Below are positions 1,561-23,186 of a stretch of DNA of 45,454 bases, one piece after another (positions within the stretch are counted from its first letter, which is position 1; each line of letters starts with the position of its first letter). Position numbers and translations under genes: made by a program. This DNA comes from a virus: positions 1 to 45,454 of IMG/VR virus record IMGVR_UViG_3300008448_000164; one strand, given 5' to 3'. The notes below the pieces were generated by a model that was not told where the DNA came from, ran no database searches, and saw only the letters and a list, made by a program, of their open reading frames with translations.

Positions 1561-2109
1561 ATGACAAAAATATTAAACGAGCAATTCAATAGAATGCTAA
1601 AATTAGCAGGTTTAATTACTGAAAATGAAATTAATGAAGAAAACTTAACCGAAAATAAATACATAGCTTCAGATTCTCCTGAAGTAACTGGATTTGAAGA
1701 AGAAAATAATAAAATAGTTGTTACTTTATCTAATGGTAATAAAGATGTAATTGAACCAAGAAATTTTGCTAATAAAGAAGCAGGATATAATAAATTTCTT
1801 GAGTTATTAAACACTATGAATACTGATCCTAATGCGAAACAAGTAGTAAATGATTACATAGAAATTAAAAGATTTAATGTACTTAATACAAAAGACGTTA
1901 CTAAACTTTTAGCTGATAATGGTATAGATGAAGAATATTTTACAGCCATGGGTGGTAAAGAAATTGAAGGAGGTTCAAATGAATGGATGGACACAATATC
2001 TGACATTACAGGTAAAGATGCCTATGAAGGTAACTTTAGTAAAAAAGATAATATGAAAATACAAACATTTATGAATCATTTAAATAGTTTAGGTATTAAA
2101 GTAATATAA
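1561..2109 (+). CDS. Candidate capsid-targeted internal protein, LAGLITE leader
   Basis: A 182-aa acidic protein, ATG 1561. The N-terminus (MTKILNEQFNRMLKLAGLIT, then Glu21) forms an amphipathic helix ending in an I-T-E triplet. T4 prohead protease gp21 cuts after [L/I]-x-E, and T4 internal proteins carry such leaders for capsid targeting. Almost the same leader occurs at the gene starting at 7605, and a related string ends the scaffold protein. The rest has no recognised domain and no Cys motif or membrane segment. It is the last gene before a strong terminator. The internal-protein role is inferred; expression is supported by the intact frame and context. Confidence 0.75.
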   Translation: MTKILNEQFNRMLKLAGLITENEINEENLTENKYIASDSPEVTGFEEENNKIVVTLSNGNKDVIEPRNFANKEAGYNKFLELLNTMNTDPNAKQVVNDYIEIKRFNVLNTKDVTKLLADNGIDEEYFTAMGGKEIEGGSNEWMDTISDITGKDAYEGNFSKKDNMKIQTFMNHLNSLGIKVI

Positions 2110-2120
2110 AAGATATAAGT

Positions 2121-2150
2121 AAGCTTGGTTTTCCAAGCTTTCTTTTTTAT
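2121..2150 (+). terminator. Rho-independent terminator
   Basis: Stem AAGCTTGG, loop TTTT, stem CCAAGCTT (8 perfect pairs), followed by TCTTTTTTAT. It lies 11 bases after the stop of the upstream gene. The same AAGCTTGG-type stem is used at 44471 and, in shortened form, at 3874. Confidence 0.9.
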
Positions 2151-2160
2151 ATTATAATTA

Positions 2161-3081
2161 ATGGTAAATCAACTATTAGTTACATTAATGAATTCTGTAC
2201 TTAGTACAGGTAAATCAACAGCTAGAGGTAATTATGCTTATACTTGCCCTAAATGTAAACATCATAAACCTAAACTAGAAATATGTCTAGATGAAAATAG
2301 CCCTGATTTTCAAAAATTTGGATGTTGGGTATGTAAATTTAAAGGTAAAAAGCTAATAAATTTATTTAAAGCAATAGATGTACCTTCAGATAAAATACAT
2401 GAACTGAAATCATTAGTTAAAACTGATGCTATTATTGATAAACAAATAGTTAGTGAACAAGTTAAATTACCTGAAGAATATCAACATGTGTTAAACAATC
2501 CATCTCATGCTGCTAAACGAGCATTAGCTTATTTAAAAAATAGAGGCTTAACAGAAGATGATATATTTAAATATAATATAGGTTATTGTGAAACAGGAAA
2601 ATACTCAGATATGATTATTATTCCTTCATATGATGAATCTGGTACTTTAAATTATTTTGTTGGTAGAAGTTATTTACCTGAATCAAATAGAAAACTCAAT
2701 CCAGATGTATCACGTAATATAATACCTTTTGAAATATTTATAAATTGGAATTCACCAATCATACTATGTGAAGGTATGTTTGATGCTATTTCAATTAAAC
2801 GTAATGCTATTCCATTGTTAGGTAAAAATATACAATCAAAGTTAATGTCTAAAATAGTTTCATCTACTGTTAAAAAAGTATACATAGCCTTAGATAAAGA
2901 CGCTATTAAACAAGCACTTGATTTCTGTGAACAATTAATTAATGAAGGTAAAACAGTACATTTAATAGAATTAGAAGATAAAGACCCAAATGAAATGGGT
3001 TTTAGATCTTTTATTAAATTACTATACAGTTCAACTCCTCTAACATACTCAGATTTGTTAGAGAAAAAACTATTATTATGA
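2161..3081 (+). CDS. DNA primase, DnaG/T4 gp61-type (zinc ribbon + TOPRIM)
   Basis: A 306-aa primase that makes RNA primers for lagging-strand synthesis with the replicative helicase. The N-terminal zinc ribbon uses C29-x2-C32 and C55-x2-C58. The catalytic TOPRIM domain shows ILCEG with Glu204 (residues 201-205) and the acidic pair in ALDKDA (Asp245, Asp247). The length is close to that of single-domain phage primases such as T4 gp61. The start ATG 2161 follows the upstream terminator by about 10 bases with an AT-rich leader. Its TGA stop overlaps the next ATG (ATGA at 3078), so translation with the nuclease gene is probably coupled. Confidence 0.88.
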   Translation: MVNQLLVTLMNSVLSTGKSTARGNYAYTCPKCKHHKPKLEICLDENSPDFQKFGCWVCKFKGKKLINLFKAIDVPSDKIHELKSLVKTDAIIDKQIVSEQVKLPEEYQHVLNNPSHAAKRALAYLKNRGLTEDDIFKYNIGYCETGKYSDMIIIPSYDESGTLNYFVGRSYLPESNRKLNPDVSRNIIPFEIFINWNSPIILCEGMFDAISIKRNAIPLLGKNIQSKLMSKIVSSTVKKVYIALDKDAIKQALDFCEQLINEGKTVHLIELEDKDPNEMGFRSFIKLLYSSTPLTYSDLLEKKLLL

Positions 3082-3845
3082 GTCAAATAAAACACTCTTA
3101 CAATCGAATCCTAGAAATATCTGATGATCATAAACAGATAACTTTACCTGATTCAAGATATTACCGTCGTAATGGTAATTATTATCCAAGTGTAACTTAT
3201 GTATTAAATTATTATCCTAAAGGAAAATTTTTTGAAGATTGGTTAAAAAAAGTAGGTTACTCATCTGAGTATATTGTTAAAAAAGCAGCCGAAGAAGGTA
3301 CTCAAGTCCATGAAATGATTGAAGAGTATTTAAATGGTAATGAACTTAATTTCTTAAACCAATATGGTAACCCACAATATAGTCCTGATATATGGTTAAT
3401 GTTTTTACGATTTGTAGAATTTTGGGAAACATATAATCCTAAATTAATTGAGACTGAAGTTCATTTATTTTCAGATGAGTTAAAAGTAGCAGGTACATGT
3501 GATTTAATCTGTGAGATTAATGGTAAATTATGGTTAATTGATTTTAAAACATCAAATCATATTCAACCAACATATGAATTACAAACAGCTGTTTATGGTC
3601 AATGTTATAAAGAATGTTTTGGTAAACCAATTGATAATTATGGTATATTATGGTTAAAATCAACTAAACGTAAATTAAATAAAGAAAAAATGTCTGGTAA
3701 AGGATGGGAAATAGTAATACCTGAACGTTCACATGAAGAAAACATAGACATATTTAAAACCGTGAAACGTTTATTTGATTTAGAAAATCCAAAAGATGCC
3801 CCAGTTTTCACTGAATTTAAAACATCTGCTAAACGAGAATTATAA
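3078..3845 (+). CDS. PD-(D/E)XK exonuclease, RecB/Cas4-like
   Basis: A 255-aa nuclease. The motifs are in the order of the RecB-like PD-(D/E)XK family: GTQVHEMIE with His78, then VAGTCDLI with Asp142, then LWLIDFKTS with Asp155 and Lys157, then ELQTAVYGQCY with Gln169 and Tyr173. These are the metal-binding residues and the QxxxY helix typical of RecB and Cas4-like nucleases. I see no 4Fe-4S Cys cluster of the Cas4 type. It overlaps the primase stop by four bases, which suggests a role in replication or recombination or in host DNA breakdown. The family call is firm; the role is inferred. Confidence 0.85.
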   Translation: MSQIKHSYNRILEISDDHKQITLPDSRYYRRNGNYYPSVTYVLNYYPKGKFFEDWLKKVGYSSEYIVKKAAEEGTQVHEMIEEYLNGNELNFLNQYGNPQYSPDIWLMFLRFVEFWETYNPKLIETEVHLFSDELKVAGTCDLICEINGKLWLIDFKTSNHIQPTYELQTAVYGQCYKECFGKPIDNYGILWLKSTKRKLNKEKMSGKGWEIVIPERSHEENIDIFKTVKRLFDLENPKDAPVFTEFKTSAKREL

Positions 3846-3860
3846 TTTTATTTTTTATCA

Positions 3861-3870
3861 ATATTTATAA
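3861..3870 (+). promoter_or_regulatory. ATATTTATAA intergenic motif
   Basis: ATATTTATAA in the gap between the nuclease gene and the P-loop kinase gene. Here it lies before a weak terminator hairpin rather than directly before a start codon. Confidence 0.4.
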
Positions 3871-3873
3871 GAG

Positions 3874-3898
3874 ACTTGGCATCCCCAAGTTTCTTTAT
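3874..3898 (+). terminator. Probable weak Rho-independent terminator
   Basis: Stem ACTTGG (3874-3879), loop CATCC, stem CCAAGT (3885-3890), then TTCTTTAT. It is a shortened relative of the AAGCTTGG terminators at 2121 and 44471. It lies just before the start codon at 3912, which argues against the longer frame starting at 3876. Confidence 0.65.
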
Positions 3899-3911
3899 TA
3901 TATTTACACTG

Positions 3912-4736
3912 ATGATAAAATTATTAGAATTATTAAAAGAAATTTCCCAAAATAAAATGGTGGTCATGGCTGGTGGAGCAGGGGCAGGGAAATCATATCT
4001 ACTTAATAAAGTAAAATCAAAAGTTCCAGATATCAAAATTCTTAACCCAGATACATACATTGAAGACAAAAATAGTCCAATGTATAATAGCTTAACAAAA
4101 GCATCAGCTCAAATTGATGATGTTGATGTACCTGACGCTATAAGTAAAGGAGAATCATTTATTTGGGACACAACAGCATCAAACGCTGCTAAAATGTTAG
4201 GTGGAGAATATCGCCGTAAACAAGTTAAAGGTATATTAAATACTGAAGGCTATGATGAAATGATGGTAATGGTTTATACACATCCTATAGTGTCATTTTT
4301 ACGTAATTTTAAACGTGAACGTAAAGTACCTACAGTTGGAGTATTATCAACATGGAATAATGTTTATGGTAATATAGAAGCATATAAAAATAAGTTAGGT
4401 GATAATTTTATATTATATCAAGCGCCTGATAAAGAATTTCAAACACAAATTGATGATTTTAATAACGCTATCAAAAGTGGTAAATTAAAAGAATTTTTTG
4501 AAAGTTTATTATCATCAGGTGAATTTAAATCAACATTTAGAAAAGATAAACCTGAATTACAATCTCCAGAAGAAAAAGAAAAAGCTGAAAAAGCTAAAGC
4601 TCAATCAAAAGCATTATTAGATACTCAAATTGATAAACTTCAAAAAGAATTTAATAACATTGAAAGTAAAGTTAAAGGTTCTATCACTACTGATGAAAAT
4701 GAAGTAATAAGTAAAATAGTTAATTTCGTAAAATGA
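3912..4736 (+). CDS. P-loop kinase, AAA_33/zeta-toxin-like
   Basis: A 274-aa protein with a clear Walker A, GGAGAGKS, at residues 21-28. A zeta/AAA_33-like layout follows: NPDTYIED, then SFIWDTTASN and a central YRRKQVKG stretch. These proteins phosphorylate small molecules or nucleic-acid ends; the substrate cannot be read here. The N-terminus MIKLLELLKEIS also fits the [L/I]-x-E leader pattern seen in many neighbours. The C-terminal 60 residues are charged and probably coiled coil. I start it at ATG 3912 because the upstream in-frame ATG at 3876 falls inside a terminator hairpin. Its stop overlaps the next ATG (ATGA). Confidence 0.75.
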   Translation: MIKLLELLKEISQNKMVVMAGGAGAGKSYLLNKVKSKVPDIKILNPDTYIEDKNSPMYNSLTKASAQIDDVDVPDAISKGESFIWDTTASNAAKMLGGEYRRKQVKGILNTEGYDEMMVMVYTHPIVSFLRNFKRERKVPTVGVLSTWNNVYGNIEAYKNKLGDNFILYQAPDKEFQTQIDDFNNAIKSGKLKEFFESLLSSGEFKSTFRKDKPELQSPEEKEKAEKAKAQSKALLDTQIDKLQKEFNNIESKVKGSITTDENEVISKIVNFVK

Positions 4737-6190
4737 GTTTAGGTAAATATTTAGCTGAAATAATAATTGAACCTACTCCTAAAAAAGTAGCTTTATATCC
4801 AGGAGCATTCAAACCACCTCATAGAGGTCATTTTGAATTAGTACAACGCTTATCTAAAGTAGCGGATGAAGTACTAGTAATTATTTCACCTATTGCTCGT
4901 GAAGGTATAACAGCACAGCAGTCATTATCGGCTTGGAAATTATATTTACCTTTATTACCTAAAGCTAAATTAGTTATTTCAGATACATCATCACCAGTAT
5001 CATATGTTTATGATTATATAAAATCTAATCCACAACAAGATATAGTGGTTGCATTTGGTAAAGGTGAAGAAAAACGCTATAACGCGCTTTTAAACAAAGA
5101 AAAATATTCAAACGTTAAAATATATGACGCTGGTAATATAGGCGGTTTATCCGCATCTGACTTACGTAATTCTATTAAGTCTAATAATCCAACTGATATA
5201 GCTAAATTTTTACCTCAAGGTATTGAAGTAGCAGATTATATGAATGCTTTAGATTTAAGTTTAAGAACTGAACCTCCGTTTAATTCAATAACTGAAAATC
5301 AAGATTTAGATTTTTATGAAGCGTTATTATCTTTAACAAAATATTATATAAATAATGGATATAATGTTTATCCATTACCTAAAATAATTATTAATAATGA
5401 CACTAAAAATGCTGCTAAAGTATTAGGTAAAACAGCATATTATGACCCAGCAAATAAATCAATAACTTTATACATAACTGGGAGACATCCAAAAGATATA
5501 TTAAGATCATTTTCACATGAAATGATTCACCATATACAAAATTTAGAAAATAGATTAAATAATATTAATACTACTAATACTAATGAAGATGATTATTTAA
5601 GTAAACTTGAACAAGAAGCATACTTAAATGGTAATATGATTCTTAGAAATTGGGAAGATAGTATTAAAAATAATACAGTTATGAATGAACAAAAAGAAAA
5701 ATCAAAATACATAATATTCTGTGATATGGATGGAGTATTAGTAGATTTTGAAAAAGGTTATGAAGATTTAACAGGATTACATACCAAACATGTTGATGTA
5801 CAAGACAGTAATGAATTTTGGAATAAATTTAGATTATCACTTGAAGAAAAAGGTATGACTGAATATGATTATTGGGTAAATCTAGAATGGATGTCTGATG
5901 GTAAACAATTATGGGATTATATAAAACCATATAATCCATATGTATTAACTGCTCCATCTCGTGACCCAGGTTCAAAACAAGGTAAAAAACAATGGGTTGA
6001 ACAGTTGGATAATATGAAAAATATATATTTCCGCGCTGCTCAAAATAAACCTGATTTCTCAGGAAAAAATCGCATACTTATTGATGACCGAGCTGATACT
6101 ATTGAAAAATGGAACGCTAATGGTGGAATAGGTATATTACATACATCTACTGAAAATACAATTGAACAACTTAAAAAACTAGGATTATAA
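4733..6190 (+). CDS. Three-part fusion: nucleotidyltransferase + HExxH + HAD 5'-nucleotidase-like
   Basis: A 485-aa protein with three recognisable parts. Residues 17-170 are a cytidylyltransferase/NMNAT-like fold: PGAFKPPHRGH with H30xxH33, and GLSASDLR (138-145), the counterpart of the ISxTxxR motif. Residues 200-315 contain SHEMIHHIQN (His262, Glu263, His266) and a downstream EQEAYLNGN, which fits a gluzincin metal site. Residues 325-485 are a HAD domain: FCDMDGVLVDF (Asp331, Asp333), a Ser/Lys region around SRDPGSKQGKK, and LIDDRAD, resembling 5'(3')-deoxyribonucleotidases. There is no internal stop or frameshift. Nucleotide or NAD metabolism is inferred; the role of the middle part is unknown. 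Confidence 0.8.
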   Translation: MSLGKYLAEIIIEPTPKKVALYPGAFKPPHRGHFELVQRLSKVADEVLVIISPIAREGITAQQSLSAWKLYLPLLPKAKLVISDTSSPVSYVYDYIKSNPQQDIVVAFGKGEEKRYNALLNKEKYSNVKIYDAGNIGGLSASDLRNSIKSNNPTDIAKFLPQGIEVADYMNALDLSLRTEPPFNSITENQDLDFYEALLSLTKYYINNGYNVYPLPKIIINNDTKNAAKVLGKTAYYDPANKSITLYITGRHPKDILRSFSHEMIHHIQNLENRLNNINTTNTNEDDYLSKLEQEAYLNGNMILRNWEDSIKNNTVMNEQKEKSKYIIFCDMDGVLVDFEKGYEDLTGLHTKHVDVQDSNEFWNKFRLSLEEKGMTEYDYWVNLEWMSDGKQLWDYIKPYNPYVLTAPSRDPGSKQGKKQWVEQLDNMKNIYFRAAQNKPDFSGKNRILIDDRADTIEKWNANGGIGILHTSTENTIEQLKKLGL

Positions 6191-6732
6191 TGAAAAAAAT
6201 ATTTGAACAAGACTCACCTGAACAAGAACCATCAGGTTTTTCAGCTATGAAAGCTGAATATGATATAGTGGTTACACCTAAAAAATCAATAGATGATACT
6301 ATTGCTGCTTTTAATAACATTGATAATTATGGAATGTATGTTTCAAATATCAGAAATACAGGTGTTAATAAAGCTGAAATTAATAAAGCTATAGAAGATT
6401 ATTTTGGACCAAATATTCCTTCTAAACGTAAATCAATTGAAAAACAAACAGGTAAATTATTTCCTATTAAAACAAAACAAGCTATAGATGATTTTATTAA
6501 GTCATTTAATTCAAAGCCTAATTTGTTAAAATTTGTTGTTAAAGATGACATGTTGATTTTCCCACAGAAAAATAATCCAACTAAAGATGTAACTAAAAAA
6601 ATAATCAAAACTGTATTAAATAATGCAGGAATAGATTATACAGTTAAAGAAAAAGAAACAACTATGGAATCTAAAGATATTAAATCATTAAAAGAAGAAT
6701 TAATATCTAAAATATACAAAAAATTAATCTAA
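6190..6732 (+). CDS. Hypothetical protein, Lys-rich
   Basis: A 180-aa protein whose ATG overlaps the upstream TAA by one base (TAATG), so it is probably translationally coupled to the fusion gene. It is basic and helical, without Cys motifs or membrane segments. Its C-terminal end (IKSLKEELISKIYKKLI) is an amphipathic helix similar in style to the N-terminal leaders of nearby proteins. I do not recognise a domain. Operon position suggests a partner in the nucleotide block or a packaged protein, but nothing in the sequence decides this. Confidence 0.65.
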   Translation: MKKIFEQDSPEQEPSGFSAMKAEYDIVVTPKKSIDDTIAAFNNIDNYGMYVSNIRNTGVNKAEINKAIEDYFGPNIPSKRKSIEKQTGKLFPIKTKQAIDDFIKSFNSKPNLLKFVVKDDMLIFPQKNNPTKDVTKKIIKTVLNNAGIDYTVKEKETTMESKDIKSLKEELISKIYKKLI

Positions 6733-6738
6733 CATATA

Positions 6739-7311: not shown

Positions 7312-7351
7312 CGTAGCTACTATGTTTCACCTAATAAAATAAATATGGACC

Positions 7352-7576
7352 GTGATCGACAATCAAGAAAAAATAAAAAATCTCGAACTATTAAGCCAAA
7401 TAATATTAATGGTTGGTATGTTCTTCAATCCATTAGGATTCGATATCCTTTTTTACTTAGTCATGAGTTTAACCAATTCATATCTGATTACAACACTTCT
7501 TTTTTACCTGGCGTCAGCTTGTTGCTTTGGTGGGTATTTCTTCTTGCGTAGAAAATTAAAGAATAATAAGTCTTAA
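7352..7576 (+). CDS. Small two-helix membrane protein, GTG start
   Basis: A 74-aa protein read from GTG 7352. After a polar N-terminus it has two hydrophobic segments, about residues 14-38 (QIILMVGMFF, FDILFYLVM) and 46-64 (TTLLFYLASACCFGGYFFL), ending in a basic tail (RRKLKNNKS). This is the pattern of a small inner-membrane protein. An overlapping ATG frame at 7345-7551 is possible but gives an unlikely protein. The role is unknown; small phage membrane proteins include superinfection, lysis-control and anti-defence factors. The start choice is uncertain. Confidence 0.55.
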   Translation: MIDNQEKIKNLELLSQIILMVGMFFNPLGFDILFYLVMSLTNSYLITTLLFYLASACCFGGYFFLRRKLKNNKS

Positions 7577-7577
7577 C

Positions 7578-7586
7578 ATATTTATA
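7578..7586 (+). promoter_or_regulatory. ATATTTATA intergenic motif
   Basis: ATATTTATA, 18 bases before the ATG at 7605, straddling the end of the upstream gene's short gap. It is one of the recurring motif copies. Confidence 0.5.
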
Positions 7587-7604
7587 CCATATAATATAAT
7601 CATA

Positions 7605-8402
7605 ATGGAACAATTTAAAAGAATGCAGCAATTAGCTGGTTTAATTACTGAAGGTATGGAAGCATACGAATATGAAAAAGGTAAAGAAGCTGGTGAAAAA
7701 GCTGAAAAGAAAAAAATGAAAAAATCTGAATTAAAAAAGCAGATTAAAGAAATGATATTAGCTGAAATGAATATTGATTTATCTAATGATGATAAATTTT
7801 ATGATTTCTTAGCTGAAGGAGAATTAACAGCTGATTCATTATATAAGATGTTTGAAAAAGAAGATCTAATTGATGATAGACGTGAATATGATGAAGAAGA
7901 TTTAATGGCTGCTTACCCTGGTTTATCTCAATCTGAAGCTGAAAAATTAGTAAATAAAATATCAGATGGACTAAATGAAGCTAAGAAAAAGAAAGATGAA
8001 GAAGTAGCGGATGTAGAAATAGACGCTAATGTTGATATGGGTAATGAAATGGACATGGGTACTGAAATGGATACTACATCAGTTCCAGCTGCATCAGATG
8101 TTCAAAAAGAATTAATGGACGCGTTAGAAGCAGCTAAAGCATCAGGAGATGAAAAATTAATTCGTCAAATTGGAAATGCTTTAACTTATTTTACTCGTAG
8201 TCAAGTATCTAAAGAAGAAGTTCCAACAATGAATGAACAATTAAGTACAGATGCTATAGAACAATTAGAAAATTTAGCTAATATGGAAGATTTAGGTGTA
8301 TTAAAAGCCAAACTTCGTATTTTATCTTCAGACTGGATGCAAGAGGGATTTGATAGAGAAGATATTATTGAATATATAGCTGATTTTATTAATAAAATAT
8401 AA
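7605..8402 (+). CDS. Candidate capsid-targeted internal protein, LAGLITE leader
   Basis: A 265-aa, very acidic protein. Its N-terminus MEQFKRMQQLAGLITEG is nearly the same as that of the gene at 1561 and ends in an I-T-E prohead-protease-type site at Glu16. A Lys/Glu-rich helical region follows, then a Met/Asp/Thr-rich linker (DMGNEMDMGTEMDTT), then a helical C-terminal third. No enzymatic motif is visible. Given the leader, the likely role is a core or internal protein that enters the prohead and is trimmed there. An ATATTTATA motif precedes it. The family is not recognised. Confidence 0.75.
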   Translation: MEQFKRMQQLAGLITEGMEAYEYEKGKEAGEKAEKKKMKKSELKKQIKEMILAEMNIDLSNDDKFYDFLAEGELTADSLYKMFEKEDLIDDRREYDEEDLMAAYPGLSQSEAEKLVNKISDGLNEAKKKKDEEVADVEIDANVDMGNEMDMGTEMDTTSVPAASDVQKELMDALEAAKASGDEKLIRQIGNALTYFTRSQVSKEEVPTMNEQLSTDAIEQLENLANMEDLGVLKAKLRILSSDWMQEGFDREDIIEYIADFINKI

Positions 8403-8406
8403 ACAA

Positions 8407-8576: not shown

Positions 8577-9458
8577 ATGAAAAAATCAGATTTTATTAAA
8601 TTAGTAACTGAAATACTTTCAGGCAAATTAAATGAAGAATTTAATCCAGCAGATAAAATAACTCTAGATGTTCCGTTATTTATTCGTTTGTTAGAATATG
8701 CTCGTGAAGATGCTAAAACAGATATGGATTTACATAATGTAACTGAAAAAGTAATCTCATTAAGTACTGAAGATAAAATTTTAACAATGAGTGATTATAA
8801 TAATATAGTTACTGCAAATAAAGAAAACATGAATGAAATATATACTTCTAGATTAGAAAAAATTGCTAATGAAATAAGAGCTAAATTTCCTAATCAAGGT
8901 TCATATGATCCTGGTGAATTATTTGATGAATACAAAGGTGAATATAATTTAACACCAGAAGAAGAAAGATTAGTTTACATGTTCATTAGAGATAAAGAAA
9001 ATGCTGAATTAGCTGAATCAACACTTGGTGAAAAGAAATTAACACCAGCTGAAATGAAAAAGCGTGAAGAAATAGTTAAATCAATGAAAAGTACTTTTAA
9101 AGGCCCTAAAGCAGCTATGTATGCAATAGCAACTGATAAAGCTAAAAAAGTAGCTGAAGATTTAGATATTGGTCATCAAGATGATGAACCAGATATGTTA
9201 AAAGCTGATGTAGCTAGAATAGCTGAATATGCTAATGCTTTATATCAAATGTTAGATAAATTTGATAAAATGCCTGGCGAAGTAGATTTCCCAGATTGGT
9301 GGCAGCAAAAAATTCATATAGCTGCTGAAAACATGGATAAAGCTAAACATTATTTAGAATTTGAAATGAAACAACCAGCTATGGATAATATTTCATCAAT
9401 CAATATAGATGCTTTAACAGAAGTTATTATCACTAGATTAAAATCTAAGAAAAAATAA
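8577..9458 (+). CDS. Hypothetical acidic protein, possible internal protein
   Basis: A 293-aa protein starting two bases after the histone-like gene. The leader MKKSDFIKLVTEILSGKLNE is an amphipathic helix with V-T-E at 10-12, near the [L/I]-x-E cleavage rule. The rest is helical and charged. A central segment (TPAEMKKREEIVKSMKS) is followed by a region that could pack as a helical bundle, with DFPDWWQQKIHIAAENMDKA near residue 238. No catalytic motif is recognised. Its stop overlaps the next ATG (TAATG at 9458). Inclusion among packaged proteins is inferred from the leader and neighbours. Confidence 0.7.
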   Translation: MKKSDFIKLVTEILSGKLNEEFNPADKITLDVPLFIRLLEYAREDAKTDMDLHNVTEKVISLSTEDKILTMSDYNNIVTANKENMNEIYTSRLEKIANEIRAKFPNQGSYDPGELFDEYKGEYNLTPEEERLVYMFIRDKENAELAESTLGEKKLTPAEMKKREEIVKSMKSTFKGPKAAMYAIATDKAKKVAEDLDIGHQDDEPDMLKADVARIAEYANALYQMLDKFDKMPGEVDFPDWWQQKIHIAAENMDKAKHYLEFEMKQPAMDNISSINIDALTEVIITRLKSKKK

Positions 9459-11068: not shown

Positions 11069-12127
11069 ATGGATAAATTAAGACAAATAATTAGAGAAGT
11101 GATACAGCAACGCAATCTTAAACCAGATTGTGGTTGTGGATGTAATGGTAAATGTGCTGAAGAAAAAGCACCAATGATAAATGAAAATTTATCACGTAAA
11201 CCATTATTAAGTGAACACTTACAATACCATGTTGATAATAAAAAACCATTAACAGAAAATACATTTCGTTATGGCTCACCAGCATTTCTTGATTTATGGA
11301 AAGAAGCTAGAAAATTATACTCACGTAATTTACTTGAAGTATCAGGTTTAGATAAAGACATAATTGTTGAAACTAATTTAGGTGAATATGGTATATATGA
11401 AGGTCAAGAAGTACCATTAGATTTACCTATGATTGAAGAAGAATTAGATGAAAGTGTAGTAGCTGCAACCGCTGCGGCTATTGCTGCAAGATCAGCTTCT
11501 TCCTCCTCAAATAATGCTTTATCTACTTTAACCCCAGACCAATTGTTACTATTAGCAGTAATGGTAGGAGTACCATCACTCGCGGCTATTGTATATAATA
11601 GCGGTCTTGTTGATAAAGTAAAGAATTGGATAAATAATTATAAATTAAATGGAGTAATAAAACGTTTAAGAGAAGATCCTGAAGTAATAGAATTTATTAA
11701 AAGTAAAAAACCAGGTATTCAAAATTTTCTAAAATCTAAATTAACTGATAAAGAACAAAAATATCTTAAACGAATTAGTTGGAATAAAATTACTAAAGGT
11801 GAGATCAAAGAAGGCCAAGTAAACGAAGCTGAATATCAAGGTAAAAAAGTGCAACTTAATAAACCTAAACGTGGTGGTTCAAAGAAATTCTATGTTTATG
11901 TTATGAATCCTAAAACTAAAAAAGTTAAAAAAGTATCATTTGGAGCAGCAGGTGGAGGTCAAAACTTAGCAGTTAAAATTAGAGATCCTAAAGCACGTAG
12001 AGCATTTGCTTCACGTCAAAACTGTGATAAGAAAAAAAATAGATTAACTCCGGGTTATTGGTCATGTAATATAGGAAGATATTGGAAATCATTAGGTGGA
12101 GGTTCAAATTTTAGCGGATATTGGTAA
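11069..12127 (+). CDS. Candidate internal protein: CTS leader, Cys cluster, hydrophobic segment, YWSC domain
   Basis: A 352-aa protein with several parts. MDKLRQIIREVI is an amphipathic leader with an I-R-E site at 8-10. CGCGCNGKC (C21, C23, C25, C29) is a dense Cys cluster that could bind metal. A hydrophobic stretch at about 158-176 (LLLLAVMVGVPSLAAIV) could span a membrane. The basic C-terminal domain (about 265-352) has KKFYVYVMNPKTKKVKKV and the pattern RQNCDKK...GYWSCNIGRYW. From general familiarity this C-terminal module recurs in phage head-associated proteins, sometimes next to prohead proteases; its function is unknown. Packaging and membrane insertion on injection are inferences. 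Confidence 0.72.
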   Translation: MDKLRQIIREVIQQRNLKPDCGCGCNGKCAEEKAPMINENLSRKPLLSEHLQYHVDNKKPLTENTFRYGSPAFLDLWKEARKLYSRNLLEVSGLDKDIIVETNLGEYGIYEGQEVPLDLPMIEEELDESVVAATAAAIAARSASSSSNNALSTLTPDQLLLLAVMVGVPSLAAIVYNSGLVDKVKNWINNYKLNGVIKRLREDPEVIEFIKSKKPGIQNFLKSKLTDKEQKYLKRISWNKITKGEIKEGQVNEAEYQGKKVQLNKPKRGGSKKFYVYVMNPKTKKVKKVSFGAAGGGQNLAVKIRDPKARRAFASRQNCDKKKNRLTPGYWSCNIGRYWKSLGGGSNFSGYW

Positions 12128-12128: not shown

Positions 12129-12479
12129 ATGAAACTATCAGAATTAAAAAATATTATTAGAGAAGAATATAATTCAGCTTCAAAATTATATGAAATTGAA
12201 GGTGTTATTGTTATTGACACTGACACAGCCTTTCATAAACAAATTATGTCTGATGTTCGTGCTGTTAAAGGAATAACAATTGTAAAGGATTATATTTATG
12301 AGCCTGTAGGTGCAGCCGCAAATAGAGGATACGCTGATTTAGTTATTAAAATAGATCCATCTCCATTTAAACAAATGAAAGTACAAGATATTGTTGACCA
12401 AGTAGTTAATGATATTAAAAGTGTTAAAGGAGTAAGAGCATTTAAAGTAAAAAAAGGACCATTTCAAGCTAATGTATAA
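12129..12479 (+). CDS. Small protein with CTS-like leader
   Basis: A 116-aa protein read from ATG 12129, one base after the previous stop. The in-frame ATG at 12096 lies inside the upstream gene and would destroy the leader. The N-terminus MKLSELKNIIREEYNSA repeats the leader type, with I-R-E at 10-12. The rest (IEGVIVIDTDTAFHKQIM, VRAVKGITIVKDYIYEP, VKGVRAFKVKKGPF) alternates strands and helices with a ferredoxin-like pattern. I cannot name a family. Its stop overlaps the next ATG (TAATG). Confidence 0.7.
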   Translation: MKLSELKNIIREEYNSASKLYEIEGVIVIDTDTAFHKQIMSDVRAVKGITIVKDYIYEPVGAAANRGYADLVIKIDPSPFKQMKVQDIVDQVVNDIKSVKGVRAFKVKKGPFQANV

Positions 12480-12871
12480 TGGATTTACGTAAACTAGTTA
12501 AAGAAATATTAGATGAACAAAAAACAAAACGTGACAGATGTTTACGTATTGCTGACCGTAAGTTTGATAAACCATCTGCTTATAAATCAGGTGCTGTAGT
12601 TAAATGCCGCCAAGGTAAGATTTGGAAAGATTTAAAAGAAGTAATTCAAGAAATAATATTAGAAGATGAATCTCTTCATAAATGGTTTAAACGTTCAGGC
12701 ACACCAGGTAAAGAAGGCGGATGGGTAGATTGTAATACTTGTAGAGATGGTAAATGTAAAGCATGTGGTAGAAAAAAAGGAGAAAAACGCTCTAAATATC
12801 CTTCATGTCGTCCAACACCAGCTCAATGTAAACAACCAGGTAAAGGTAAAAAATGGGGGAAAACAAAATGA
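12479..12871 (+). CDS. Cys-rich small protein with CTS-like leader
   Basis: A 130-aa basic protein. The leader MDLRKLVKEILDEQ offers L-D-E at 11-13. Next comes RDRCLRIADRKFDKPSAYKS, a PSAY-type motif common in phage and giant-virus proteins, then WFKRSGTPGKEGGWVDCNTC with CRDGKCKACGRKKGEKRSKY and SCRPTPAQCK. Pairs of Cys (CNTC, CKAC, SC, QC) strongly suggest structural zinc. The enzymatic role is unknown. The high Lys/Arg content fits nucleic-acid binding or packing with DNA in the capsid. Confidence 0.72.
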   Translation: MDLRKLVKEILDEQKTKRDRCLRIADRKFDKPSAYKSGAVVKCRQGKIWKDLKEVIQEIILEDESLHKWFKRSGTPGKEGGWVDCNTCRDGKCKACGRKKGEKRSKYPSCRPTPAQCKQPGKGKKWGKTK

Positions 12872-13137
12872 CAAATGAATTTAATGTAACTGAGTGGATA
12901 CTTAAAAATAGATTAAAAGAATATGAGGGAGAAGAATATCCTCCTTATATGTACTCACCTGTAGGTTTTGGATGTCATGTATGTAAATTTCATTATATAG
13001 AAGATGAAAAACATATGTGTTCTAATAAAAAATATCAAGAATATAAAGGTACAGCTGAATTAATAGATGATAATGGGGATCCTATTAAAGATCCATCTAA
13101 ATGGTGTTCAAACTGGTTTTTACCTAAAGGAGAATGA
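12868..13137 (+). CDS. Small Cys protein (CxxC...C...WC)
   Basis: An 89-aa protein read from ATG 12868, overlapping the previous stop (ATGA). Cysteines are spaced as GCHVCKFHY, HMCSNKKYQEYKG and KWCSNWF, a four-Cys set that could bind zinc or an iron-sulfur cluster in the manner of HiPIP-like small proteins. Aromatic residues and Pro flank it (EEYPPYMYSPVGFG). I recognise the pattern as recurrent in phages but know no assigned role. The frame could be extended upstream to 12853, but coupling favours 12868. Confidence 0.68.
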   Translation: MTNEFNVTEWILKNRLKEYEGEEYPPYMYSPVGFGCHVCKFHYIEDEKHMCSNKKYQEYKGTAELIDDNGDPIKDPSKWCSNWFLPKGE

Positions 13138-13508: not shown

Positions 13509-14894
13509 ATGAATAAGAAAATAGTAATAGTAGGTGCTGGTGTAGCAGGTATTAATGCTGCAACTAAATTAGTAGACAACGGATATCCGGGTGAATTAAT
13601 AACAATTATTGATAAAGGAAACGATCCATATAATCGTTTACCTGAAGAAGTAATGACAGGTATGTTAGGAGCAGGTGGATGGAGTGATGGTAAATTAACA
13701 TATCATACAGCAATTGGAGGTCAATTAGCAAAATATTGCGGTGAAGAAAAAGCAATGGAATTAATGAAACAAGTAGTAGATAATTTTACTCGTTTTCATC
13801 CTAAACCAGAAGAAATTTTTATGTCTGATCCACAAGAAGAACCTGAATTTATTAAACCATATTTTGGATTACGTATGTTTCCAGTATGGCATATTGGTTC
13901 AAATTATCTACATGAAATTGCTAAAACATGGTATCAATATTTAGTTGATAAAGGTGTTAAATTTGAGTGGAATGCTGAAGTAACAGAAATTAATTTTGAA
14001 GAAGATTATTTAATGTTTAAAGATACTAATAATTGGGTAGGTAAGAGATTTTATGATAAACTAATATTTGCAGTAGGTAAATCAGGTATTGATTTTGCTC
14101 AACAATTAGCAGATGATTATCAATTACCTAATGAACCTAAATCAGTTCAAATTGGAGTTCGTTTTGAAGCACCACAAAAATACTTCCAGAAATTAATTGA
14201 TATCAGTTATGATTTTAAACTATATCAGAAATTTGATAATGTATCGTTAAGATCATTTTGTACTAATAATAACGCGGCTTATGTAGCAGTAGAAGAAACG
14301 TATGGTGATATTACATATAATGGTCATGCTAAAAAAGGTGAAGAATTTAGAAACAATATGACTAACTTTGGTATCTTGATGGAAATTAAAGGTATTGAAA
14401 ATCCGTTTGAATGGTCAAGAGAAGTGGTTAAAAAGTGTCAAGTAAAAGAAATTCAATCATATAATATACAATCTTTCGATTTAACTCAAGAAGGAATAGC
14501 TAGTAGAGGAACAGGAAATGTGATACAAAAAGGTTTATATTATTCTCCTAAAGGAACTAGAAAACCATCTCAAACATCTGAAAATGATAATATAAAAGCT
14601 ACTCAAATTATAGATTTGTTTCCTATAAGATCAGCTATGGGAAAATATTTTAATTATATTGAAGATTTCATCAACCAAATGAACGAAGTATTTGAATTTG
14701 GTGATGATTGGGGTATGTATATTCCTGAAGTAAAATATCTATCACCTGAACCATTAGTAAATTATGACGATTTATCATTAACTGAATACCCAAATGTACA
14801 CTTTGTAGGTGATGCCTTAAGTGCTCGTGGAATTACAGTATCAGGAGCGCACGGAATATATGTTGCTGAATATTTATTATCAAATAGCAACTAA
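13509..14894 (+). CDS. FAD-dependent dehydrogenase (COG2509-like)
   Basis: A 461-aa flavoprotein. The N-terminal Rossmann motif is VIVGAGVAGINAA (Gly9, Gly11, Gly14), followed by an acidic strand end (IIDKG). GAGGWSDGKLT near residue 54 corresponds to the G-(G/A)-x-x-SDGKL motif of the COG2509 FAD-dependent dehydrogenases. The C-terminus carries HFVGDALSARGITVSGAHGI, the usual second FAD-contacting motif. It is full length. Substrate and redox partner are unknown. Such an enzyme is unusual in a T4-like phage and may be an auxiliary metabolic gene. Its TAA overlaps the next ATG, so it is coupled to the DUF6884-like gene. Confidence 0.85.
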   Translation: MNKKIVIVGAGVAGINAATKLVDNGYPGELITIIDKGNDPYNRLPEEVMTGMLGAGGWSDGKLTYHTAIGGQLAKYCGEEKAMELMKQVVDNFTRFHPKPEEIFMSDPQEEPEFIKPYFGLRMFPVWHIGSNYLHEIAKTWYQYLVDKGVKFEWNAEVTEINFEEDYLMFKDTNNWVGKRFYDKLIFAVGKSGIDFAQQLADDYQLPNEPKSVQIGVRFEAPQKYFQKLIDISYDFKLYQKFDNVSLRSFCTNNNAAYVAVEETYGDITYNGHAKKGEEFRNNMTNFGILMEIKGIENPFEWSREVVKKCQVKEIQSYNIQSFDLTQEGIASRGTGNVIQKGLYYSPKGTRKPSQTSENDNIKATQIIDLFPIRSAMGKYFNYIEDFINQMNEVFEFGDDWGMYIPEVKYLSPEPLVNYDDLSLTEYPNVHFVGDALSARGITVSGAHGIYVAEYLLSNSN

Positions 14895-16166: not shown

Positions 16167-16180
16167 CATAAATAACAACC

Positions 16181-16840
16181 ATGGAAAAAATAAATATTCG
16201 CCAGATTATTAAAGAAGAAATAGATATTGCTTTAGATGAAATGGCTCGTGCTAAAGTAATTTATACTGTTAAAGATAAACCATCATTAGAAAAAGTAGTA
16301 GACGCTGCTAAAGGTAATACTAAAATGGCTTTACAATATCTTTTAGATAAAGGCGAAATGGCTATAGCTGATTTAGCTAAAGAATTAAAAAAAGATCCAG
16401 CTGCCTTTAATAATCCAGGTTTTAGAAAATTAATGTCAGATTTATCTGATAAAAATGTAGTATCAGTAAATTCAGTTGGTACTCCATCTGCTCCAAGTGC
16501 TCCTAAAGTAGAAAAACCAGCTCCTAAAGTTGATATGACTGTTGGTGGTGATGATTTTGAAAAAGAAATGCCATCAGATGTTGATGTAATGGCTGGTGAA
16601 AAAGAATTTGGTGATGTTGGAGCTGAAAAATTAGCTGATGAAGAAAAAGCTAAATTTGAAAAATTAAACGCAGCTATTAGAAATAAAGTAGCTAAATTAG
16701 AAAAAATGTCATCTAAAGACAGAGCTAAATCAACAGATCTAGCTGTTGTAAAACAAATTATTAATAAACCTGAGGTTAAAAAATTATTTAGATCTAAAGG
16801 TATAGACGTAATGGACTTAGTAAGTTCAGTTATTGGTTAA
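16181..16840 (+). CDS. Candidate capsid-targeted internal protein
   Basis: A 219-aa protein. The leader MEKINIRQIIKEEIDIALDE has I-K-E at 10-12. Residues 25-95 are helical and look like a small winged-helix or helical bundle (NTKMALQYLLDKGEMAIADLA, PAAFNNPGFRKLMSDLS). A Pro/Ala/Ser linker (PSAPSAPKVEKPAPK) leads to an acidic, helical C-terminus. The linker and leader resemble those of phage core proteins. No enzyme motif is seen. Immediately downstream is a TTG-start gene. Confidence 0.72.
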   Translation: MEKINIRQIIKEEIDIALDEMARAKVIYTVKDKPSLEKVVDAAKGNTKMALQYLLDKGEMAIADLAKELKKDPAAFNNPGFRKLMSDLSDKNVVSVNSVGTPSAPSAPKVEKPAPKVDMTVGGDDFEKEMPSDVDVMAGEKEFGDVGAEKLADEEKAKFEKLNAAIRNKVAKLEKMSSKDRAKSTDLAVVKQIINKPEVKKLFRSKGIDVMDLVSSVIG

Positions 16841-16841
16841 T

Positions 16842-19000: not shown

Positions 19001-19001
19001 C

Positions 19002-19010
19002 ATATTTATA
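19002..19010 (+). promoter_or_regulatory. ATATTTATA intergenic motif
   Basis: ATATTTATA filling nearly the whole 13-base gap before the portal gene; the ATG is 3 bases downstream. Confidence 0.5.
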
Positions 19011-19013
19011 ATT

Positions 19014-20894: not shown

Positions 20895-20904
20895 TATTTT
20901 TAAC

Positions 20905-20913
20905 ATATTTATA
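20905..20913 (+). promoter_or_regulatory. ATATTTATA intergenic motif
   Basis: ATATTTATA, 16 bases before the ATG at 20930, in the short gap after the portal gene. Confidence 0.5.
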
Positions 20914-20929
20914 ATAAAATTTACTCATA

Positions 20930-21784
20930 ATGTTAGTAAAACATAATAAATTTAAAAACTCCGGCTTAATATTTGAACTGTTAGTTAGACAAATCACAGC
21001 AGATACATTATCAGGCAAAGAGTCACCATCAATTGATATTTTAAAAAAATATTTTGTTAAAACAGAATTAAGTAAAGAATATAAATTGTATGATACTGTA
21101 CTAAAACAATCTCAAATTACAGAAGCTAAAGCTAATATTGTTATTGAAGAAGTATTAAAAGCATCTCGTAAATTAAATAGAACTACTTTACGTAAAGAAA
21201 AATACAATTTAATTAGTGAAATTAAATCTCACTATAATTTAGATGAGTTTTTTAAAACTAAACTTCCAAATTATAAATCTCAAGCTGCATTATATACATT
21301 AATTGAAATATATAATAATCAAGAGTTAACAGACCCTAATCAAATTATTTCTAATAAAATGACTTTGTTAGAAAATTTAACTGCTCAACCAGTTAAAGAA
21401 AAAGAAGTTAGAGATAATATTATTGAAGAGTTTAAAAAATATGATAAAGATTTACGTTTATTAACATATCAAGTTTTACTAGAAAAATTTAATGGTAAAT
21501 ATAATTCTTTAAATGATAATCAAAAGGTAATATTAAGAGAGTTCATTAACTTAGTAGATAATACTCCACGTTTAAGAGAATTTTATAATACTAAAATTAA
21601 TGAGATTAAAACTCAATTAACTAAATTAAATAAATCAGTTACTGATAAAGTAACTCAAATTAAATTAAATGAAGTTATATCATTAATTACAGAAATTGAT
21701 AAAACCTCAAAAATATCAAATGATGATTTAGTAAATTTATTACAATACTATTCATTAGTTGATGAATTAAAATTAGTAAAATGA
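20930..21784 (+). CDS. Conserved head-module protein of unknown function
   Basis: A 284-aa, Lys-rich all-helical protein. The N-terminus contains NKFKNSGLIFELLVRQITAD, a signature I associate with a conserved protein found between portal and protease in marine T4-like phages. There are no Cys, no catalytic motif and no membrane segment. The helical-repeat look suggests a scaffold- or core-associated role. Its stop overlaps the next ATG (ATGA at 21781), linking it to the small core protein. Confidence 0.75.
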   Translation: MLVKHNKFKNSGLIFELLVRQITADTLSGKESPSIDILKKYFVKTELSKEYKLYDTVLKQSQITEAKANIVIEEVLKASRKLNRTTLRKEKYNLISEIKSHYNLDEFFKTKLPNYKSQAALYTLIEIYNNQELTDPNQIISNKMTLLENLTAQPVKEKEVRDNIIEEFKKYDKDLRLLTYQVLLEKFNGKYNSLNDNQKVILREFINLVDNTPRLREFYNTKINEIKTQLTKLNKSVTDKVTQIKLNEVISLITEIDKTSKISNDDLVNLLQYYSLVDELKLVK

Positions 21785-22104
21785 CCCCAGATAAATTAAA
21801 AGAATTAGTTAAGAAAACCCTACAAGAAATGTCTATGACTGGTGGTGGTACTGCTGGAGGAGCATTTAGTGCTGGTGTTGGTATGAATTATGCTACACCT
21901 AAAGCATTTAAAAAAGTAAAAAATATAGACGAAACAGCATATGGTACTGGTAATTTAGGTCCTGGTCCAAAAGCTGGAAAAGATGGGGTTAAAGATAATT
22001 ATTATGTGAAAGCATTTGGATTTAAACCTGTTAATCGTAAACAACAAGCAAAATCATCTAAAGCTATAGATTATAAAGATCTATGGGGTAAAACATATAA
22101 ATAA
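21781..22104 (+). CDS. Small prohead core protein sharing a motif with the major capsid protein
   Basis: A 107-aa protein. The leader MTPDKLKELVKKTLQE ends in L-Q-E at 14-16, an ideal prohead-protease site. Directly after it comes MSMTGGGTAGGAFSAGVG, which strongly resembles SQTGAGTAGAAFTAGVG just after the likely cleavage site of the major capsid protein in this window. The rest is basic and Gly/Lys-rich (GPGPKAGKDGV, FKPVNRKQQAKSS). In position it parallels T4 gp67/gp68, between portal and protease. It is likely a processed core or capsid-lining protein. Confidence 0.78.
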   Translation: MTPDKLKELVKKTLQEMSMTGGGTAGGAFSAGVGMNYATPKAFKKVKNIDETAYGTGNLGPGPKAGKDGVKDNYYVKAFGFKPVNRKQQAKSSKAIDYKDLWGKTYK

Positions 22105-22113
22105 TATTTATTA
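22104..22113 (+). promoter_or_regulatory. ATATTTATTA intergenic motif
   Basis: ATATTTATTA starting on the last base of the preceding stop, 14 bases before the ATG at 22128. Confidence 0.5.
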
Positions 22114-22127
22114 TAAACAATATTAAC

Positions 22128-23186
22128 ATGAGAAATACACTTCAAGAACAATACAATTTAATTAAAGAAGGTAAAGGAGCTAAAGATGTGTTTTTAAAAC
22201 ACGCTAAATCTTTATTTCCAAATTTAATACCTAACCATTATGAATTTAGTTCAGCATCAAAAATACTTCTTCAACGTGGTATTATATCTGAAAACATGAT
22301 TCTAAATGAAAATTTATGGGGCGTAACTACAGGTAATAACAAACAACCTGATTGGTTTAAATTATTTGAAGAATATACCGCTTCATCTGAAGAAAAAGAA
22401 ACTAAAGCTGATGCTTCTAAACCATCTAAAGAAGTAGATGAGTATAAAGAAAAATCAAATAGCAAACAATACGAAGCAAAAACTGGTGATGATGTTATTT
22501 TTGATCAATACTTAAATGGTATCCAGATTGAAGCATGCAAATCAGAAAACAACGGCAAAACTGTTGATGAATTAAAGAAAATTGTATTAAAAAATCTTAA
22601 AAAAGATAACTTATATTATACTAAAAACGCTGCTTTCGGTGTTGAAGGTATTGGCTATACAGAAGACGTTCCTGGTTTAGGTGCTACTAAAGAAGTAAAA
22701 GGTAAATATGCTTCATCAGGTATGGAACCAGTTAAATTAAAAGAAAATATGAATACTAAAGAATCTCAATTACGCTCAGCAATTCGTCAATTAATTAAAG
22801 AAGAACTTAACTTAAAAGAAATCGATCAAATCGGTGAAGAAGCTTCAAAAGGAGCTAAAGTTAAGAAAATTAACGACGAAATCAATAAACGTAAGAAAAA
22901 AATTAAAGCTTTAGAAACGTTAAAAGAATTAGAAGATGATTCAATCAATCCTAAAAAATTAAAAGAATTATATTCTGAAATTAAAAAACTTGAAGCAGCT
23001 AAAAACAAACTTGAGAAAAAAGGTAAGAAAAAAGAGCAGATTGTAGATGAAGTTACTATTGTAGATAAAACTACTACAAGTGATGAAGTAGCTGATATAG
23101 TAAAACAAGAAAAAACTACACCGGCTGCTGTAAAACAAGCAATTAGTACTGCTAAAACTTCAGGCAAACCAGTAAATGTAGCTTAA
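22128..23186 (+). CDS. Prohead core protein candidate
   Basis: A 352-aa protein between the 107-aa core protein and the protease. The leader MRNTLQEQYNLIKEGKGAKD has L-Q-E and I-K-E sites. A folded-looking first third (VFLKHAKSLFPNLIPNHYEF) leads to an acidic linker. A second leader-like helix, SQLRSAIRQLIKEELNLKEI (about 204-223), is embedded in the middle with another I-K-E site. The C-terminal third is long Lys/Glu coiled coil ending in a Val/Thr/Ala tail. This layout fits a scaffold-core protein cut at several sites. The T4 equivalents by position are gp67/gp68. Confidence 0.75.
   Translation: MRNTLQEQYNLIKEGKGAKDVFLKHAKSLFPNLIPNHYEFSSASKILLQRGIISENMILNENLWGVTTGNNKQPDWFKLFEEYTASSEEKETKADASKPSKEVDEYKEKSNSKQYEAKTGDDVIFDQYLNGIQIEACKSENNGKTVDELKKIVLKNLKKDNLYYTKNAAFGVEGIGYTEDVPGLGATKEVKGKYASSGMEPVKLKENMNTKESQLRSAIRQLIKEELNLKEIDQIGEEASKGAKVKKINDEINKRKKKIKALETLKELEDDSINPKKLKELYSEIKKLEAAKNKLEKKGKKKEQIVDEVTIVDKTTTSDEVADIVKQEKTTPAAVKQAISTAKTSGKPVNVA

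Follow-up and report, generated by a model that had tools for sequence, protein, structure and literature searches.

Leaders shared by unrelated proteins of a T4-like viral contig, one class matching the scaffold tail, as probable prohead-targeting tags

The viral contig IMGVR_UViG_3300008448_000164 of IMG/VR (45,454 bases, here called the window; G + C content 29.5%) carries a T4-like head module, and a series of its proteins begin with a short leader that ends in [LI]xE. This raises the question of what these leaders are for and where they come from. In phage T4, capsid-targeting sequences (CTSs) of 10–19 residues target the internal proteins (IPs) to the core and gp21 cleaves them at L/I-X-E (PMC9026906). 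We found four stereotyped leader classes, A to D, on unrelated proteins of this virus and its relatives, and class A is the same motif as the C-terminal tail of the gp22-like scaffold. The leaders are very probably prohead-targeting tags of the T4 type that derive from core proteins and that gp21 would cut off.

Genes are named here by their first position. An earlier reading of the window (the sequence-only reading) had singled out nine proteins, and all nine do begin as it described. Up to the Glu, their residues are MTKILNEQFNRMLKLAGLITE (1561), MIKLLELLKE (3912), MEQFKRMQQLAGLITE (7605), MDKLRQIIRE (11069), MKLSELKNIIRE (12129), MDLRKLVKE (12479), MEKINIRQIIKE (16181), MTPDKLKELVKKTLQE (21781) and MRNTLQEQYNLIKE (22128). 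The supposition that such leaders are commoner than in shuffled N-termini was borne out: [LI]xE was present within residues 5–24 of 27 of the 52 window genes, compared with a mean of 12.1 in 5000 shuffles, all of which stayed below 27. By position, it was present in 19 of the 29 genes starting between 1561 and 22128 and in 8 of the 23 elsewhere. Internal 20-mers of window proteins contained the motif in 128 of 621 cases.

For comparison, 158 IMG/VR loci were fetched with the terminase and with gene 4733 (the best 80 per query; some share contigs); in the comparison sets, loci are labelled L plus a number, e.g. L009. Open reading frames (ORFs) were called by a simple script from the first ATG, with no ribosome-site model, and some starts are wrong. 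The 1910 distinct proteins of at least 60 residues were grouped into 376 clusters by homology beyond residue 30, using masking and coverage limits, and leaders could therefore be compared between proteins with unrelated bodies. LAG[ILV] within residues 2–28 was found in 17 of the 376 cluster representatives (0.54 in shuffles; 0.2% of 2581 internal 27-mers) and a leader of the form [LI][RK]x[LIM][IV]xE in 16 (0.07 in shuffles; 0.0% internally). A pattern-free search for over-represented words in the N-termini of 706 groups recovered these two leaders, A and B, and a third, C, whose top word occurred in 19 groups and had an internal control count of 0.0; for the 40 best words the internal counts were 0.0–0.4. 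Class D was recognised on comparing orthologues. The classes are A, EEFRRMQKLAGIITE; B, KLSELRQLIREE; C, NFDLRKYLAEGKLLKE; and D, MIKLxDLLxE.

The sequence-only reading had proposed a profile scan of the leaders across this genome and its relatives. Classes A–D together were found in 88 of 781 protein groups (the terminase group included), compared with about 1.0 expected from shuffled N-termini (B 0.85, D 0.10, A 0.05, C none), the patterns being drawn from the same data as were counted and those of classes D and B overlapping. Class C reached at least 16 bits at 51 N-termini of 34 clusters and at no other site in 2366 proteins, with a matrix built from 27 members of the scored set itself. 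As in a T4-type CTS system, a short N-terminal leader ending in [LI]xE is common to non-homologous proteins. By terminase identity, Flavobacterium phage immuto is the closest named phage (59.6%); Microcystis phage Mel-JY01 (53.8%), an uncultured phage (43%) and Rhodothermus RM378 (31%) come next. In immuto, 10 of 226 ORFs bear a class leader, and one further class A leader falls outside the pattern (25061-25456, RMQFLAGI). Leaders B and C, as 20-residue queries, gave no tblastn match in named phages.

The leaders and related elements of the window are:

1561..1623, plus strand: class A leader of gene 1561-2109 (FNRMLKLAGLITE, predicted cut after the last residue); matrix score 41.0 bits, p 0.0002, the lowest value possible.
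3912..3941, plus strand: class D leader MIKLLELLKE of the zeta-toxin-like P-loop kinase 3912-4736, by pattern.
7605..7652, plus strand: class A leader MEQFKRMQQLAGLITE of gene 7605-8402; 44.6 bits, p 0.0002.
7722..7763, plus strand: internal class B-like copy in 7605-8402, KSELKKQIKEMILA; 15.1 bits.
8577..8612, plus strand: borderline class B-like leader MKKSDFIKLVTE; p 0.0012.
11069..11098, plus strand: class B leader MDKLRQIIRE of 11069-12127; 28.9 bits.
12129..12164, plus strand: class B leader MKLSELKNIIRE; 26.0 bits.
12479..12505, plus strand: class B leader MDLRKLVKE of the DUF5872 protein 12479-12871 (family by Pfam), by pattern.
12868..12921, plus strand: class C-like leader MTNEFNVTEWILKNRLKE, class C by pattern and not by the class C matrix.
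16181..16216, plus strand: class B leader MEKINIRQIIKE; 23.2 bits.
21781..21828, plus strand: class B-like leader MTPDKLKELVKKTLQE of a small protein encoded between the portal and protease genes; 12.5 bits.
22128..23186, plus strand: probable prohead core protein, adjoining gp21 in gene order, N-terminus MRNTLQEQYNLIKE.
22761..22814, plus strand: class B-like element within 22128, ESQLRSAIRQLIKEELNL; 19.4 bits.

The p values come from matrices whose source clusters contained no window member, the smallest possible p being 0.0002. This value was obtained for class A with 1561 and 7605, and for class B with 11069, 12129, 16181 and, more weakly, 21781. By pattern, 12479 belongs to class B and 3912 to class D (the latter also marginal for B, p 0.0039), and the call for 22128 is a family-specific N-terminus (class B p 0.0094), similar in the 38 cluster members listed. 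Two weaker cases had been proposed as well: 8577 is borderline and has close relatives with B-like leaders, and 15357 was dropped: it scores marginally (B p 0.0044, A p 0.0089), and the nine members of its group conserve the N-terminus as part of the protein itself. The sequence-only reading had overlooked the scaffold tail, the leader of 12868, the B-like copies inside 7605 and 22128, and the site-bearing N-terminus of 4733.

Leaders similar to that of 1561 occur in relatives, and the class D pattern is present in 42 of the 51 members of the 3912 group. The 11069 protein, which has a Cys cluster and a hydrophobic segment, lacks its leader in relatives whose first ATG falls at the CxCGC cluster; its AlphaFold model has a mean predicted local distance difference test (pLDDT) of 61.5 and a predicted template modelling score (pTM) of 0.32. 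The L009 counterpart of the 21781 leader is MKLSELKKLVKETLQE. Past its predicted cut site (21829-21900) the 21781 protein begins MSMTGGGTAGGAFSAGVG, closely like the start of gp23 past its likely site, TSQTGAGTAGAAFTAGVG; the likeness is seen again in close relatives, and 21781 may mimic the mature capsid N-arm.

The probable source of tag A lies in the head module, in the order terminase 17402, portal 19014, three small genes, gp21-type protease 23188, scaffold 24009 and gp23 25013:

23188..23802, plus strand: prohead protease gp21 (Peptidase_S77; PF03420 5.6e-30, above cut-off).
24009..24977, plus strand: gp22-like acidic scaffold, placed between gp21 and gp23.
24930..24974, plus strand: class A tag as the C-terminal tail of the scaffold, IVE followed by SNDMVARFQKLAGII, with the predicted cut between them.
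25013..26686, plus strand: major capsid protein gp23, 3' of the scaffold, in the position of the annotated major capsid protein of immuto.

The head cluster thus encodes an S77 prohead protease (domain match at 23272-23691), and by gene order a gp22-type scaffold lies between the protease and major capsid genes in the window, immuto and Mel-JY01, both as in T4-type CTS systems. The scaffold cluster comprises 21 sequences, immuto and Mel-JY01 among them; the gp23 cluster, also of 21, served as marker for gp23-bearing loci.

The window scaffold ends in IVE-SNDMVARFQKLAGII, a motif equal to leader A, the immuto scaffold in ISE-VSEQVSRWQKLAGIIK and that of Mel-JY01 in LNE-SNNVVERMKKLAGIVK. The motif ends 15 of the 21 distinct scaffold sequences, one (L010) being cut short. 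Among the 2366 proteins, tag A was N-terminal in 26 (18 clusters), C-terminal in 23 (5 clusters) and internal in 2; the pattern used skips the RMQFLAGI leader of immuto, and a shorter one gives 27 N-terminal tags. One internal case, L015:1671-3005, holds two tandem leader-like A copies in a linker, apparently of fused tagged cargo. Named phages have the full leader A only in four immuto records, and the scaffold-tail peptide matched only Mel-JY01 among them (E 8). AlphaFold gave a scaffold model of moderate quality (pLDDT 68.6, pTM 0.28), used for the tail helix only; in it the tail is a separate helix at 310-318 (mean pLDDT of 311-320: 77) behind a low-confidence linker, 283-303. An inspection by eye only for covariation between leader A and the scaffold tail of the same genome gave no clear result.

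A blind test was made by scanning viral contigs for the codons of [RS]MQK[LF]AG[ILM], which gave at least 120 stretches; 80 loci with 81 matches were examined. Sixty-three matches were C-terminal, 16 were N-terminal leaders and 2 were other: L203, which is internal, and L201, whose ORF lacks an upstream ATG and in which a GTG start would make the match N-terminal. Of the C-terminal matches, 58 were scaffolds according to hidden Markov models (HMMs) built after deletion of the tail; the remainder were two fragments on gp23-bearing loci (L178, L209) and three non-scaffold proteins (L180, L182, L241). As a control, the same codon pattern was searched in a bacterial genome collection (257 Gb, 87 stretches), of which again 80 loci with 81 matches were examined. 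Here 44 matches were internal, 21 had no ORF of 60 residues and 9 no upstream ATG; only 7 were terminal, 4 at the N-terminus (none leader-like by eye) and 3 at the C-terminus, two of which (L345 and L422) resemble phage scaffold tails. The terminal location thus differs strongly, 79 of 81 viral versus 7 of 81 bacterial matches (Fisher p 8e-35), matches without an ATG (the nine bacterial ones and viral L201) being scored as non-terminal; with these scored as terminal the counts are 80 of 81 versus 16 of 81.

The position of the putative cleavage site follows that of the tag. [LIV]xE lies at most 6 residues after LAG in 24 of 27 N-terminal tags (16 of 19 clusters; background 7.2%) and at most 12 residues before the tag in all 23 C-terminal ones (5 of 5 clusters; background 16.5%). 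Among the blind matches the site was so placed in 16 of 16 N-terminal and 54 of 63 C-terminal tags. A site after an N-terminal tag and before a C-terminal one is as expected for one protease that frees the body from either end.

Tag B also has a counterpart in a probable core protein: the homologues of 22128 in L059, L040, L035, L048, L054 and L047 end in an element similar to its internal B-like copy. Class B matches of at least 12 bits were found at N-termini in 51 clusters, compared with 1.7 in shuffled proteins. Within one family tags are permuted around a conserved core. Members of the 7605 family have an N-terminal A and an internal B (window, L088), an N-terminal B, in a segment resembling the internal copy of 7605, and a C-terminal A (L114, L115, L161), an N-terminal C with an internal B and a C-terminal A (L157), or an N-terminal C with an internal B-type segment (L112; L120 by eye). 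Thirteen groups contain homologous bodies with two or more leader classes; because the B and D patterns overlap, only about nine of these are clean swaps. The clean swaps include 12868 (C/D; its body bears class D leaders in L107 and L136), L005:3188 (C/D), L110 (B/D), L043 (A/B), and L095 and L136 (A/C). In L101, a DUF5872 body homologous to 12479 is preceded by MIKLVDILLE.

These observations are consistent with the following model. The scaffold gp22 and accessory core proteins would form the internal core and would bear short helical docking tags, A being the gp22 C-terminal tail and B resembling the element in 22128. Unrelated proteins would have acquired either N-terminal copies of these tags (A or B) or an independent leader (C or D), and would thereby be recruited into the assembling core and so enter the prohead. 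The gp21-type protease would then cut after [LI]xE, downstream of an N-terminal and upstream of a C-terminal tag, and free the body inside the head, where it may be retained in the virion. Some of the freed bodies may be delivered with the DNA, by analogy to T4 IP proteins and Alt. The tags could dock on the gp23 shell or on other core subunits. In herpesviruses the C-terminal tail of the scaffold binds the major capsid protein and has a protease site just upstream, and because of this parallel gp23 is our first guess for the partner; we know of no herpesvirus scaffold tail that has been copied onto cargo as an N-terminal leader. We lean, by a little, towards the more specific proposal that cargo poses as scaffold through a portable copy of the docking tail, that the tail probably docks against the inside of the gp23 shell, that tags work at either end, that some cargo is made as polyproteins, and that this code predicts the cargo of uncultured phages.

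What the tags are attached to was examined in 83 proteins (80 of the 88 group representatives, 8 short or doubtful ones being omitted, and 3 other members). Profile searches gave few matches, and most of the proteins scanned matched no known family. Pfam found zeta-toxin-like kinase (2), DUF6934 (3), DUF5661 (2), DUF5872 (1), cytidylyltransferase-like (1) and superoxide dismutase (SOD; 1) domains; PHROGs added NT5C-type deoxyribonucleotidase (2), its other matches being mostly to families with no assigned function. The P-loop kinase recognised earlier in 3912 proved to be zeta-toxin-like, with the P-loop GGAGAGKS and a match to PF06414 above cut-off (6.4e-8; 32.7 bits, cut-off 22.3), although a search of the PDB with it gave no match. 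Host-takeover and anti-defence factors had also been suspected. A PADLOC scan of the 83 proteins was unconvincing (four families with one member each, best E 5.6e-5), and the anti-defence arsenal is kept as a hypothesis. Thus, of the packaged and injected arsenal proposed for these genes, targeting and trimming gained support, from the S77 protease, the shared and swapped leaders, the identity of A with the scaffold tail and the side on which the sites lie, and the injected host-takeover or anti-defence part did not.

The tagged protein L007:3566-4267 is an Fe/Mn SOD (Pfam 1.2e-30), and its best solved relative, 3tjt (1.5e-47), aligns from residue 29 onwards. Of 52 viral SOD loci (L292-L343 among them), 33 open with a D-type leader, and the SOD domain that comes after it is ordinary in other respects, a count read by eye that includes near-identical contigs, among them L293 and L294 (100% identical to query residues 1-233), and a few D-like leaders that miss the strict class D pattern. 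Five SODs lie within fusions of 1014-1602 residues, 7 are unclear or extended, 3 lack the N-terminus and 4 (L335, L337, L339, L340) start directly at the domain, the frame of L337 running off the contig. The leader-bearing SODs are candidate virion-packaged enzymes.

In the fused SODs the start of the domain could be placed in 4 of 5, and [LI]xE stood just ahead of it in all 4. For fused NT5C domains, [LIVM]xE was found at most 20 residues upstream in 12 of 13 distinct members (background 25%, p 6e-7, which is too small because the 13 sequences are related). Because these sites precede the fused SOD and NT5C domains, the arrangement suggests polyproteins that would be split in the prohead. The window contains one such gene:

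4733..6190, plus strand: cytidylyltransferase-like and NT5C-like fusion, possible polyprotein, N-terminus MSLGKYLAEIIIE.

In the PDB, 4733 matched phosphopantetheine adenylyltransferases (best E 5e-4, about 35 residues aligned). In 4733-6190 and in L300, L301, L304 and L305, a cytidylyltransferase-like part is fused to an NT5C-like or SOD domain, with [LIVM]xE where the two meet.

Several observations weigh against prohead targeting as the function of the tags, or limit it. The tail is diverged in 5 of the 21 scaffolds (L052, L063, L068, L073, L077; RMRELAFGKK-like), and in the blind set 8 of the 58 tailed scaffolds (L186, L202, L207, L208, L211, L216, L226, L235) and the non-scaffold protein L241 lack [LIV]xE among the 12 residues ahead of the tag. 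Class B also occurs away from N-termini, in 7 C-terminal and 21 internal clusters versus 1.0 and 9.7 shuffled hits, the individual sites being among the matches listed; this excess is mild and much smaller than that at N-termini. Its specificity is weak, because 13 of the 52 window genes pass p 0.01 for class B and the terminase 17402 (MSQDLREIIKQE, p 0.0002) is among the scorers, as are 6739, 9458 and the structural-region gene 36757. No counterpart of leaders C and D was found in a core protein here. Mel-JY01 (35% G + C) has the scaffold tail, no class A leader, and leaders in 4 of 251 ORFs; tag load therefore differs among phages, given the 10 of 226 in immuto. The leaders are unlike those of T4 itself, none of 64 ORFs in T4 segments matching the class patterns, and no virion proteomics was found in the literature listed for this clade.

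Some of these points have their own readings. Six of the scaffolds without a site (L186, L202, L207, L216, L226, L235) have weaker HMM scores and keep the RMQKLAG tail; the protease of the site-less scaffolds may have another specificity. The terminase was rejected as cargo, and we take its class B score, without proof, as convergence of an N-terminal helix; the resemblance of MSQDLREIIKQE to leader B is either convergence or something real.

Other explanations of the tags were considered. It is hardly credible that [LI]xE-ending amphipathic N-termini are simply ordinary in an AT-rich genome and form a chance collection here. The window is indeed poor in G + C, and single short leaders are weak alone (that of 3912 at p 0.0039), but shuffled N-termini and internal controls contradict chance, and the class patterns matched only 3 of 516 ORFs of bacterial pieces, in addition to the T4 and Mel-JY01 counts given above (the T4 and bacterial sets being unmatched in composition). 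The tags could also direct proteins elsewhere, to a host complex, a membrane or a degradation route, the scaffold tail using the same receptor in another way. Localisation is read here from sequence alone, short helices can bind many partners, and Mel-JY01 retains the tail with almost no tagged proteins. This is nevertheless quite improbable: the side of the site switches with the position of the tag, as head processing predicts, a C-terminal degron cannot account for N-terminal use, and the 81 blind viral matches include 58 scaffold tails, 2 fragments beside gp23 and 16 leaders.

It is possible, if rather unlikely, that the tags are real and the arsenal is not, the tagged proteins being mainly core or assembly factors consumed in maturation, like T4 gp67 and gp68. 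Tags A and B are present in the scaffold and in 22128, the families of 7605, 8577, 16181 and 21781 have no enzyme match and lie near head genes, and tags A, B and C all occur in the 7605 family. We regard 22128, 7605 and perhaps 16181 and 21781 as more like core components than cargo in appearance. However, the tagged zeta-toxin-like kinase, SOD and NT5C-like nucleotidase have no obvious role in assembly, and 88 groups seem too numerous and too variable for conserved assembly parts.

Compared with known systems, the leaders resemble the CTSs of T4 IPI-III and Alt in being N-terminal [LI]xE peptides of 10–20 residues on unrelated proteins, in phages that encode a gp21-type protease and, close to gp23, a gp22-type scaffold (PMC9026906). 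That source also describes processing of Alt at its C-terminus and reports that a Glu-to-Asp form of the IPIII CTS is packaged yet left uncut, and in the text available to us recognition of the CTS by the core appears only as core affinity and co-purification of IPs with gp22 (PMC9026906). The T4 sequences themselves are different: MKTYQEFIAE of ipII and ipIII and MELITELFDE of alt fit none of classes A–D, and T4 gp22 ends in VYAKVASRF. Unlike in T4, there are four interchangeable leaders here, more tagged proteins, C-terminal as well as N-terminal tags, and one leader that equals the scaffold tail. Leader C was rejected as a T4 CTS, ipII, ipIII and alt scoring -8 to -13 with the class C matrix, the only matrix tried on T4. 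The T4 CTS stretch QEFIAEA resembles the gp22 N-terminus EQLIAEA of the same phage, which is a lead.

In phage P1, an N-terminal signal of DarB is likewise sufficient to bring a reporter to the capsid; in contrast to the leaders here, the Dar N-termini are reported to have no BLAST consensus, and P1 apparently has no separate scaffolding system (PMC9024508). In giant phage SPN3US cleavage also follows the Glu of a short motif, and N- and C-terminal propeptides are proposed to target the prohead, but the motif is AxE, the propeptides measure 124-127 residues in three examples and 20 in one, and the available parts of the reports describe no copy of a scaffold tail (PMC5694885, PMC7411985).

The peptides RMQKLAG, LAGIITE, LAGLITE, QKLAGII and FRRMQKL occur in no paper of the open-licence literature searched, and searches of that literature on CTSs, scaffolds, leaders and SODs, at the level of titles and abstract starts, gave nothing describing scaffold-tail leaders. 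The CTS principle is thus known from T4, and the mechanistic clue that a leader equals the scaffold tail was not found in print in that literature. Because one leader is recognisably the tail of the scaffold itself, core recognition becomes testable through the binding partner of that tail. Prediction of cargo becomes a sequence search, the 88 groups of this sample being candidate virion-packaged proteins that include antioxidant and nucleotide enzymes. The natural swaps suggest that the tags could serve as modular packaging tags when laboratory strains are used for phage-based protein delivery.

A few further observations were made in the window and its relatives. In Mel-JY01 (PP395634.1, 60276-62718; L165) three paralogues have a class D leader followed by ISDRVWHxT, and the two tested gave no Pfam match. 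Gene 13509-14894 of the window encodes an FAD/NAD(P)-binding oxidoreductase that is leaderless and surrounded by tagged genes. The 692-residue protein of 31789-33867 presumably consists of degenerate SHAEG-type repeats, and the 1127-residue protein of 38058-41441 has a C-terminus that seems to resemble an autoproteolytic tail-fibre chaperone.

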